64,000 nt of DNA. It comes from Psychrobacillus sp. BL-248-WT-3. GTDB taxonomy: Bacteria; Bacillota; Bacilli; Bacillales_A; Planococcaceae. Made by a program: the position numbers and the translations under genes. A model generated the notes under the pieces. It did no database searches and was not told the origin of the DNA. It saw only the letters and a program-made list of their open reading frames with translations. Below are positions 29,073 through 59,227 of this stretch, one piece after another (within the stretch, counting starts at the first letter, position 1; each line of letters opens with the position of its first letter). Location: assembly GCF_012843435.1 (NCBI RefSeq), contig NZ_JABAFC010000008.1:1-64000 (forward strand), read 5' to 3'.

Positions 29073-30278
29073 CTATACGTCTGAATTAGTGGAGAGCTTA
29101 GAAACACCGGACTCTATTGCAGCCTTGCTTACCTCTCGAGAGACCGCTTGTACCACTCTCTTATCGAAAGCTTGAGGAATAATATAATCATTACTCAAAT
29201 CCTTTTCTTCAATTAGGTTAGCGATTGCCTGAACGGCAGCTAATTTCATATCATCATTAATTTCGTTTGCCTTTGCATCGAGAGTTCCTCTAAATATCCC
29301 AGGAAAAGCTAAAACATTATTTACTTGGTTTGGGTAGTCAGAACGACCAGTAGCTATAATTCTTACTCCCCACTCCTTCGCATTCTCGTAAGAAATCTCC
29401 GGCACTGGATTTGCCATAGCAAAAATTATAGAATCTCTACTCATCAAGTCTACTAAATCCTTTGTTAAAAGATTTGCCACTGAAACACCGATAAATACAT
29501 CCGCACCTGCCATTGCATCTCGTAGGCTACCCTTCAATCCGATTGAATTTGTTAAGGTAGCAATTGTTTCCTTTACCGGGTTCATCCCTTTTTTTCGTCC
29601 CTTATAAATAATACCTGTTGAATCACACATAATAATTTGTGTATAACCAAGTTGGACAAGGATTTTCATAATAGCCACTCCTGCTGCTCCTGCTCCGTTA
29701 ATAACTACCTTTACATTTTCTTTTTGCTTTTTAACTAGCTTTAGTGCATTTTGCAAGCTAGCGCCAACTACTATAGCTGTTCCATGCTGATCATCATGGA
29801 ACACAGGTATATTTAACTCTTCTTGTAAACGTCTTTCTATCTCAAAACAGCGCGGGGCTGAAATATCTTCTAAATTTATCGCTCCAAACGAAGGACTAAT
29901 AGCTTTAACAATTGACACAATTTCTTCTATATCATTAGTGTTTAAACAAATTGGAAATGCATCCACATTTGCAAAGCTTTTGAAGAGAATAGCTTTACCT
30001 TCCATCACAGGCAAGGAGGCTTCTGCCCCTATATTTCCTAACCCAAGTACAGCAGAACCATCAGTTACCACACCAACCATATTTCCCTTAGCCGTATAAT
30101 CATACACACTAGAAGGATTATTTTTGATTTCTAAACAAGGTTCCGCAACTCCCGGCGAATAAGCTAGACTTAAATCTTCCATCGTGTTCACCGGCACCTT
30201 GGAAAGTATCTCTAACTTCCCCTTGTTTTCCTTATGAACTTTTAAAGCTCGATCTCTTAAAGTCATTGTCTCACTCAC
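29073..30278 (-). CDS. Malic enzyme (NAD(P)-dependent, oxaloacetate-decarboxylating)
   Basis: 401 residues. Converts malate to pyruvate and CO2. The N-terminal LAYSPGVAEPCLEI tyrosine motif, the catalytic LEDISAPRCFEIE segment, FHDDQHGTAIV metal ligands and the nucleotide-binding VINGAGAAGVAI are complete. Length and motifs fit the short bacterial malic enzymes (YtsJ-like); cofactor preference cannot be fixed by eye. It is transcribed toward its own terminator, with a small RNA candidate about 170 bp upstream on the same strand ending before its promoter region. Confidence 0.95.
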   Translation of the reverse strand: MSETMTLRDRALKVHKENKGKLEILSKVPVNTMEDLSLAYSPGVAEPCLEIKNNPSSVYDYTAKGNMVGVVTDGSAVLGLGNIGAEASLPVMEGKAILFKSFANVDAFPICLNTNDIEEIVSIVKAISPSFGAINLEDISAPRCFEIERRLQEELNIPVFHDDQHGTAIVVGASLQNALKLVKKQKENVKVVINGAGAAGVAIMKILVQLGYTQIIMCDSTGIIYKGRKKGMNPVKETIATLTNSIGLKGSLRDAMAGADVFIGVSVANLLTKDLVDLMSRDSIIFAMANPVPEISYENAKEWGVRIIATGRSDYPNQVNNVLAFPGIFRGTLDAKANEINDDMKLAAVQAIANLIEEKDLSNDYIIPQAFDKRVVQAVSREVSKAAIESGVSKLSTNSDV

Positions 30279-30451: not shown

Positions 30452-30588
30452 AAAAAAAACGACATCAGCACGGATGTCGTTTTACAAGGGACGAACTTAA
30501 CGTTGAGGGGGTTAAGTCGTAATAAATACTCAGCTGTACTTTGGAGAAAAGTTGCTGGTAAGAACCTTCTCTATTGAGTAAGCTCTAT
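30452..30588 (-). ncRNA. Fur-controlled small RNA candidate with C-rich loop (FsrA-like)
   Basis: A transcript starting about 30588 from the promoter at 30595-30623 would be about 137 nt. It contains a hairpin CTTAAC-CCCCTCAAC-GTTAAG (30516 to 30496) that exposes CCCCUC in the loop, a second C-rich patch GTCCCTTG, and a terminator with an 11-bp stem AAAACGACATC/GATGTCGTTTT followed by eight U. There is no ORF of note inside. FsrA of B. subtilis is a Fur-repressed RNA that uses C-rich single-stranded stretches to block ribosome sites. The design is the same; sequence homology is not shown. Confidence 0.75.
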
Positions 30589-30590
30589 AC

Positions 30591-30623
30591 GATAATGATA
30601 ATCATTTTCAATTAGTATGTCAA
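30591..30623 (-). promoter_or_regulatory. Sigma-A promoter embedded in a Fur box
   Basis: Minus strand -35 TTGACA (30623-30618), a 17-base spacer, and -10 TATCAT (30600-30595). The 19-bp Fur box GATAATGATAATCATTTTC at 30591-30609 covers the -10 and matches the classic box GATAATGATWATCATTATC at all but one position. Iron-loaded Fur would block this promoter. Confidence 0.88.
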
Positions 30624-30896
30624 CCATTTTTATTAATGTAATTTTTTACTTACCCAAGTTAAGTTTTACTTACTAATTGTTTTGGCAGTCGATTAATGGG
30701 GTGAATGCTTCTTTCTTTCCCATAGAAAGCGTTCGCCAGTGAGGAAATCGAAGTTACACACCTTTGAATAGAGGTTTGTTCGTTGTACTCCCCTTCTACT
30801 CGTTTGCTAATTACTTTATTGTAAAACTAAAATGCATATTCCTTTTAGCTTCGGGAATAGCTAATAACAATCCCCAAAAAAAAGGAGTGAGAAAGA

Positions 30897-31211
30897 ATGG
30901 ATCGAAAAATAGACAAACAAGTGGAAGTAGCATTAGAAAGCTTCAGTACAGACGAAAAAAATAATATCCTAAAAAGCTTTACTACATTTAAGGATTATCT
31001 AGCTGACAAAGTTAAAATGGGTGAAAAAATGGGTCTAAGTGATGAGACCCTTGCAAAAGCAACCGAGAAAGTCGCAGGTTATCTTGCAGCGCACGAAGAA
31101 CCTAGAAACCGTGAAGAACATCTTTTACAGCAACTATGGAAAACTGCTGACAAAGATGAGAAGCAAGCACTTAGCCAAATGCTTTTAAAACTTACGAAAC
31201 ATGAAGGATAA
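30897..31211 (+). CDS. DUF3243 (YmfJ-like) protein
   Basis: 104 residues, ribosome site AAAGGAGTGAG. All-helical small protein with FKDYLADKVKMGEKMGLSDETLAKATEKVAGYLAAHEEPRN cut into the usual DUF3243 helices, and a closing EEHLLQQLWKTADKDEKQALSQMLLKL. Homologues such as YmfJ have no known activity. The stop overlaps the start of a downstream small ORF. Confidence 0.85.
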   Translation: MDRKIDKQVEVALESFSTDEKNNILKSFTTFKDYLADKVKMGEKMGLSDETLAKATEKVAGYLAAHEEPRNREEHLLQQLWKTADKDEKQALSQMLLKLTKHEG

Positions 31212-56324: not shown

Positions 56325-56343
56325 GAAAATGATTATCATTTTC
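56325..56343. promoter_or_regulatory. Fur box upstream of yclQ
   Basis: GAAAATGAT-T-ATCATTTTC, a perfect 19-bp palindrome that matches the Fur box, 36 bp upstream of the yclQ ATG. It may give the binding protein an extra iron-repressed promoter inside the operon. Confidence 0.93.
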
Positions 56344-59208: not shown

Positions 59209-59227
59209 GATAACGATTATCATTATT
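59209..59227. promoter_or_regulatory. Fur box of the yclNOP operon
   Basis: GATAACGATTATCATTATT matches the 19-bp Fur box at all but two positions, and lies 40 bp upstream of the chosen permease start. Confidence 0.88.

Follow-up and report, generated by a model that had tools for sequence, protein, structure and literature searches.

The window analyzed here is a stretch of 64,000 nucleotides from a member of Psychrobacillus, a soil bacterium. On its minus strand, from position 30623 to 30452, lies a complete small-RNA (sRNA) gene with a promoter, a Fur box, hairpins, and an intrinsic terminator that ends in U8. An initial annotation, made from the sequence, had described such a gene, and our analysis bears out its outline. 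Coordinates are given in Table 1.

All three promoter elements of the initial annotation are present: the -35 hexamer, the 17-base spacer, and the -10 hexamer, which together match the consensus at 11 of 12 positions in a promoter scan of the window. The scan found 3 promoter-like sites in the stretch, where 2.3 were expected, so the promoter is distinguished solely by the quality of its match and by the Fur box. This box, which overlaps the -10 hexamer, had been called near-perfect; it agrees with the consensus GATAATGATTATCATTATC at 18 of 19 positions and differs at one. In the whole window, Fur boxes were found at three places (six matches on both strands with at most three mismatches; 0.04 expected). 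The other two places, 56325-56343 and 59209-59227, lie at a cluster of siderophore binding protein and siderophore-type ABC transporter genes (identified by eye), and they serve as a positive control for the Fur motif. The terminator (30483-30456 plus the U-run), already noted as strong, has 11 pairs; one was found in the stretch, and 0.2 were expected. As claimed before, there is no open reading frame (of at least 20 amino acids) within the transcript on its own strand.

Table 1. Features of the sRNA gene and its neighbors in the window
Feature	Position	Strand	Basis or remark
Malic enzyme, downstream neighbor	29073..30278	-	relative in locus L003 matches Pfam malic/Malic_M
DUF3243 protein, upstream neighbor	30897..31211	+	context
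-35 hexamer TTGACA	30618..30623	-	TTGAC kept in 17/17 Psychrobacillus loci displayed
-10 hexamer TATCAT	30595..30600	-	promoter scan; 17-nt spacer from -35
Fur box GAAAATGATTATCATTATC, over the -10	30591..30609	-	1 mismatch in 19; in 17 Psychrobacillus loci, found with a search pattern that already included the box core
Small RNA, about 137-140 nt, putative +1 near 30588	30452..30591	-	17-genome transcript alignment; fold z -5.2
Hairpin H1, 5' hairpin, sequence variable	30561..30586	-	alignment and fold
Hairpin H2 carrying CUUUUCUCC	30531..30557	-	consensus loop; predicted to be partly paired in the RNA of the window (unpaired 0.57)
Address 1 AACUUUUCUCCA	30542..30553	-	12-nt perfect complement of the same genome's citB (aconitase) leader
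Hairpin H3 with C-run loop	30491..30520	-	consensus and predicted fold
Address 2 CCCCCUCAA	30503..30511	-	complementary to the sdhC Shine-Dalgarno sequence (UUGAGGGGG) over 9 nt
Intrinsic terminator with U8	30452..30483	-	terminator scan

In sister species, an FhuF-like gene lies between the DUF3243 gene and the sRNA; it is absent at the window locus (30610-30896) and at that of one other genome (G001). The five displayed sister loci that keep the FhuF-like gene all have the DUF3243 gene and next to it the FhuF-like gene, which is oriented divergently to the sRNA; in four of them (all except L005), the malic enzyme is on the other side. The label "FhuF-like" comes from matches to TIGR03951 at 6e-11 and 8e-13, which are below the cut-off, and from weaker Pfam matches. 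An FhuF-like gene is also divergent from the sRNA in two other genera (g5 and g11), and a gene with a similar start, as judged by eye, is divergent from it in two more (g9 and g18). We rejected the idea that the sRNA gene was relocated: the locus is syntenic, and DUF3243 and malic enzyme are its customary surroundings within the genus.

Conservation and fold of the RNA

In a BLAST search with a 201-base region, 17 of 18 Psychrobacillus genomes gave a homolog of transcript length, and an RNA covariance model added a homolog in another genome (G518), which brings the count to 18 of 19. The lone exception is G015, where the sRNA was not found at its locus. A covariance model that was built without the promoter (R1) matched 29 of the 261 genomes from the family at E < 0.001: the 18 from Psychrobacillus and 11 from three other genera. 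Each of these 11 immediately follows a Fur box, an element that was not part of the model.

We also searched 54 non-Psychrobacillus genomes from the family with a pattern that combines the Fur box with TTTTCTCC. The pattern matched 28 of them, and a reversed control matched none of the 54. On reading the matches, we judged the gene to be real in 25 genomes, and direct reading of stretches gave 7 further genomes with imperfect Fur boxes. The initial annotation had made its case depend on the hairpin and promoter being kept in related genomes, and the gene is kept in these 32 of 54 genomes as well as in 18 of 19 from Psychrobacillus (12 genera in all). Pattern search and reading did not find it in the other 22. 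Reading led us to dismiss as chance the pattern matches of G437, G202, and G232 and, in G408, G030, and G521, the second match (in G202 and G030, the second match was judged solely by the letters that fit the pattern). The sRNA was not seen when stretches from G509 (L080), G613, and G024 were read. A stricter pattern, run against 84,980 species genomes, matched 15 stretches, of which 14 are from this family and one is gammaproteobacterial (L032); we set the latter aside, by eye, as a chance match. The spacing limit of the stricter pattern misses several genera, so the RNA may occur elsewhere.

In four of the 32 relatives (G026, G107, G029, and G035), the order or number of the motifs differs. 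G026 and G107 (L252 and L253) have two C-runs that flank UUUUCUCC, one of them within the first hairpin, and in G035 and G029 (L291 and L292), the C-run precedes CUUUUCUCC. Two other variants stand apart from these: G241 carries the sRNA gene in two copies (L236 and L258), and in Tetzosporium (L231 / L043), the terminator of its relatives is replaced, past H3, by sequence with GAGGCTGGGACATAAC, possibly an inserted repeat.

The 140-nt RNA has a predicted folding energy of -38.3 kcal/mol, which none of 200 shuffled sequences equaled. Where the initial annotation had a single hairpin before the terminator, there are three. Its C-rich hairpin loop is the loop of the third hairpin (CCCCUCAAC), and this part of the description stands. 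Conservation does not extend to its second C-rich patch (presumably UCGUCCC); the other motif that is conserved, CUUUUCUCC (30551-30543), lies upstream and had been overlooked. In an alignment of 27 sequences from 8 genera, the only invariant columns are CTTTTCTCCA.A and CCCC. Between genera, the stems differ in sequence yet stay stems, with CUUUUCUCC and CCCC unchanged, and among the 17 aligned transcripts, insertions and deletions disregard reading frame and the motifs are invariant.

The C-run is predicted to be exposed. When local segments are folded, it is mostly in a hairpin loop in all 41 members (17 from Psychrobacillus and 24 others), and in whole-transcript folds, its probability of being unpaired averages 0.87 (range 0.35-1.00). 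CUUUUCUCC is less exposed than the C-run, both in the window's own RNA (Table 1) and on average (0.65, versus 0.45 for H1-H3 overall).

Complementarity to the sdhC and citB leaders

We compared the sdhC and aconitase (citB) leaders of 19 Psychrobacillus genomes and predicted duplexes from short segments. In all 18 genomes that carry the sRNA, the Shine-Dalgarno sequence of sdhC is GAGGGGG(G), which is the complement of the H3 loop, so that the C-run could pair with it in each of them; the predicted duplexes range from -17.1 to -25.3 kcal/mol (18/18 genomes). In G015, the site reads GAGGGAGG, and pairing with the sRNA of G003 is weakened (-14.9 kcal/mol). Taken in isolation, the sdhC match is weak, as a match of 9 nt was attained by 118 of 5000 shuffles. 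Moreover, the G-run is a general trait of sdhC leaders: outside Psychrobacillus, 18 genomes from seven genera have at least AGGGGG.

The initial annotation had suggested that the C-run might be matched against translation starts to find targets. This holds for sdhC, as described above, and does not hold for the genome-wide list by itself, which is insufficiently enriched: GAGGGGG occurs near ATG at 53 sites, versus 28 for a backwards control. These sites correspond to 40 distinct open reading frames; 21 were scanned in Pfam, and 2 of those are Fe-S proteins. The list includes qcrA (the Rieske protein) and a 4Fe-4S protein among many genes with no evident link to iron. The start codon of sdhC is TTG, so sdhC is missing from this ATG-based list. 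We dropped a proposed link between the number of Cs in the sRNA and the number of Gs at sdhC: no Psychrobacillus has 6 Cs with 5 Gs, yet G475 has 7 Cs with 5 Gs.

The H2 motif is complementary to the citB leader at TGGAGAAAAG, a few bases after the likely -10 element of a putative transcription start. The sequence GGAGA[A/G/U]AAG is found in the citB leader of all 18 sRNA-bearing Psychrobacillus genomes. In 13 of these the complement is perfect over 12-13 nt, and in the remaining five it is broken by a G-U pair (four genomes) or a mismatch (G007). For the window genome, the 12-nt complement was reached by just 2 of 5000 dinucleotide shuffles. Beyond Psychrobacillus, the leader motif is present in all 25 genomes whose sRNA came from the pattern search. 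In the window species, some 50 nt separate the site from the start codon downstream, which makes direct blocking of the Shine-Dalgarno sequence unlikely there. G015, which lacks the sRNA at its locus, has nevertheless kept a citB site, which matches the sRNA of G003 over 17 nt; a moved copy of the sRNA is possible in that genome. We also observed that GGAGAAAAG, near the presumed 5' end of the citB mRNA (for example, some 50 nt before the start codon in L153), is kept in most of the family genomes examined, including ones where the sRNA was not found.

Next to the core of the pairing, the sRNA and the citB leader co-vary. Across 47 genomes from 12 genera (25 distinct rows), the first core-adjacent base forms a Watson-Crick pair in 17 rows and the second does so in 16, versus 10.4 and 7.3 if shuffled (p = 0.0003 and 0.0001, from rows that are not independent by descent). 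For the second of these bases, A-U, G-C, U-A, and C-G all occur. Permuting the genera worsens the pairing (p = 0.003 for Watson-Crick pairs, or 0.024 with G-U pairs included); an earlier count with 41 genomes from 8 genera gave p = 0.024. At flank positions 3 and 4, the signal was absent in the same 47 genomes. Within Psychrobacillus, there is one compensatory change; in G000, G001, and G518, the sRNA has A for G beside the core, and citB has U for C. The rows omit G026 and G107 (the core base differs), G432 (citB was not found), and G015 (no sRNA), as well as the second citB of G475 and the second sRNA copy of G241. The fit is incomplete: both core-adjacent bases are mismatched in two genera (g10 and g14), and one of the two is mismatched in five genera (g5, g13, g15, g18, and g19) and in one genome of g17.

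For 16 genomes, we predicted the flanking bases of the citB site before the leaders were read. All five bases were correct in 7 of the 16 (5/5 in g11 and 2/3 in g17), one base was off in 5 (G519, three from g5, and G031), and the prediction was mostly wrong in 4 (g2). The co-variation that we expected between citB and the sRNA in g10 failed on reading. Conversely, the citB leader of G025 demands AGCCAC in the sRNA, and the sRNA, which was read later, has AGCCAC (this prediction was not noted beforehand).

Could the citB leader motif be kept for a function in cis, such as a 5' hairpin and perhaps protein binding, with the resemblance to H2 being a coincidence? The leader motif is also found in 14 of 19 family genomes for which the pattern search gave no sRNA; six of these later yielded an sRNA, and eight did not after all searches, so a cis role is possible. 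Several citB leaders also fold as a GAAAAG/CUUUUC hairpin, which again suggests a possible cis role, and one that the sRNA may exploit. Against a cis-only explanation, the citB complement was so rarely reached by shuffling, the bases beside the core co-vary in trans, and the H2 motif is invariant in the 27 sequences although its stem is variable. We consider coincidence to be a minor possibility, and we favor the reading that the sRNA pairs with the citB leader.

Relationship to known regulatory RNAs

IsrR of Staphylococcus is described as having three stem-loops and a terminator, C-rich loops, and two Fur boxes; its C-rich regions are in the loop of H1, 5' of H2, and in the loop of H2 (PMC9410917). 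IsrR lowers CitB, and sdhC is a predicted target (PMC11257911). Compared by description only, the RNA in Psychrobacillus resembles IsrR in its three stem-loops and terminator, its C-rich loops, its Fur box, and aconitase as a predicted target, and the two members in which C-runs surround UUUUCUCC, with one in the first hairpin, come closer still. Homology to IsrR would account for these similarities, and yet it is unlikely: the motifs are placed differently (mostly in H2 and H3 here), and there is one Fur box instead of two.

FsrA of Bacillus subtilis (RF02273) also has a Fur box overlapping its promoter, C-rich stretches, and a terminator, and like FsrA, the RNA here has a C-rich stretch, predicted to be unpaired, that is complementary to the Shine-Dalgarno sequence of sdhC. 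The reported targets of FsrA are sdhCAB, citB, and qcrA (PMC8464778). Given the shared promoter logic, the short RNA with a terminator, and the overlap of its predicted targets (sdhC and citB) with those of FsrA, the RNA might be a diverged and relocated FsrA, the same gene by descent but beyond the reach of the Rfam model. This is quite unlikely. The initial annotation had proposed a search with the FsrA model, and with RF02273 neither the locus (E up to 10) nor the genome (at 0.001) gave a match; the B. subtilis control was detected. The model hits just 5 of 398 genomes from the class, all from one genus, and R1, run with default filters and E up to 10, hit none of five FsrA loci, so neither model matches the other's RNA. 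Unlike the RNA here, FsrA is 84 nt, has its C-runs in the linker and the terminator loop, and lacks CUUUUCUCC (by eye). A 2025 paper states that FsrA homologs occur across Bacilli, Staphylococci, and Listeria (PMC12871923, excerpt), a breadth that we did not reproduce with the Rfam model. No other Rfam family reached its threshold at the locus, where there were only weak, chance-like matches; elsewhere in the window, the Rfam search identified a SAM riboswitch (RF00162, 18718-18834, minus strand, 86.6 bits).

The initial annotation had left two options, a relocated FsrA or an independent iron-sparing RNA. The first loses ground, given the lack of a model hit and the syntenic locus, and the second gains from the complementarity to sdhC and citB and from the co-variation with citB. 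The RNA is probably an FsrA-like regulator from a separate family; by the Rfam-model test, it is not FsrA. Another comparison is with RoxS/RsaE of Bacillus and Staphylococcus, whose C-rich regions likewise pair with Shine-Dalgarno sites (PMC8216469, excerpt). RoxS can also act on mRNA decay via RNase J1, and it differs from the RNA here in being under ResD and Rex; the excerpt does not name it as Fur-controlled (PMC8464778).

Finally, it is very improbable that the element only serves the malic enzyme gene as a Fur-regulated leader or is just a non-functional transcript of it: the sRNA does lie upstream of that gene and in the same direction, but a strong terminator precedes the malic enzyme open reading frame by about 170 nt, and at the seven closest malic enzyme loci from other genera, there is no Fur box with over 14 of 19 matches within 1.5 kb upstream (0.7 kb for G520), and those seven genomes carry the sRNA elsewhere.

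A candidate iron-sparing regulator

The explanation that we favor, and hold with good confidence, is that the gene encodes a trans-acting, Fur-repressed, iron-sparing sRNA with two addresses, the C-run of H3 and the motif of H2. When iron is low, Fur would leave the box over the -10 hexamer and the RNA would be made. The H3 loop, CCCCCUC, would then block translation by pairing with G-rich Shine-Dalgarno sequences, chiefly the one of sdhCAB and probably also the one of qcrA. CUUUUCUCC and its flanking bases would pair where the citB mRNA presumably begins and invade its 5' hairpin. This may reduce aconitase either by destabilizing the mRNA or by hindering ribosome loading.

Complementarity to the mRNAs of iron enzymes (sdhC and citB) is kept across species, which is a trait of Fur-repressed iron-sparing sRNAs. 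As two conserved loops match the starts of two iron-rich metabolic genes, the sRNA very probably turns these genes down when iron is scarce, and, judging from the sequence comparisons, this conserved Fur-boxed gene is very likely an iron-sparing regulator.

We put forward a broader proposal only tentatively. The RNA may represent an undescribed iron-sparing family, present throughout this bacterial family, with two independent addresses: a general one, the C-run against Shine-Dalgarno sequences, and a specific one, in which a motif mimics the 3' arm of the 5' hairpin of citB and so would open this hairpin and expose the aconitase mRNA to decay. The sRNA and its target would have coevolved in trans over some dozen genera, and the RNA would be the third such origin in Bacilli, beside FsrA and IsrR (the latter compared by description only). 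Iron-sparing RNAs have been described as convergent solutions (PMC9410917, excerpt). In a literature search confined to openly accessible papers other than preprints, and judged by listed titles and the openings of abstracts, no report of such an RNA came up for Psychrobacillus or for its family.

Because the sRNA co-varies with citB, their pairing is directly testable. FsrA and IsrR are the cases from Bacilli that we met in the literature searched, and a third family, widely conserved and aimed at the same core targets, would replicate them independently.
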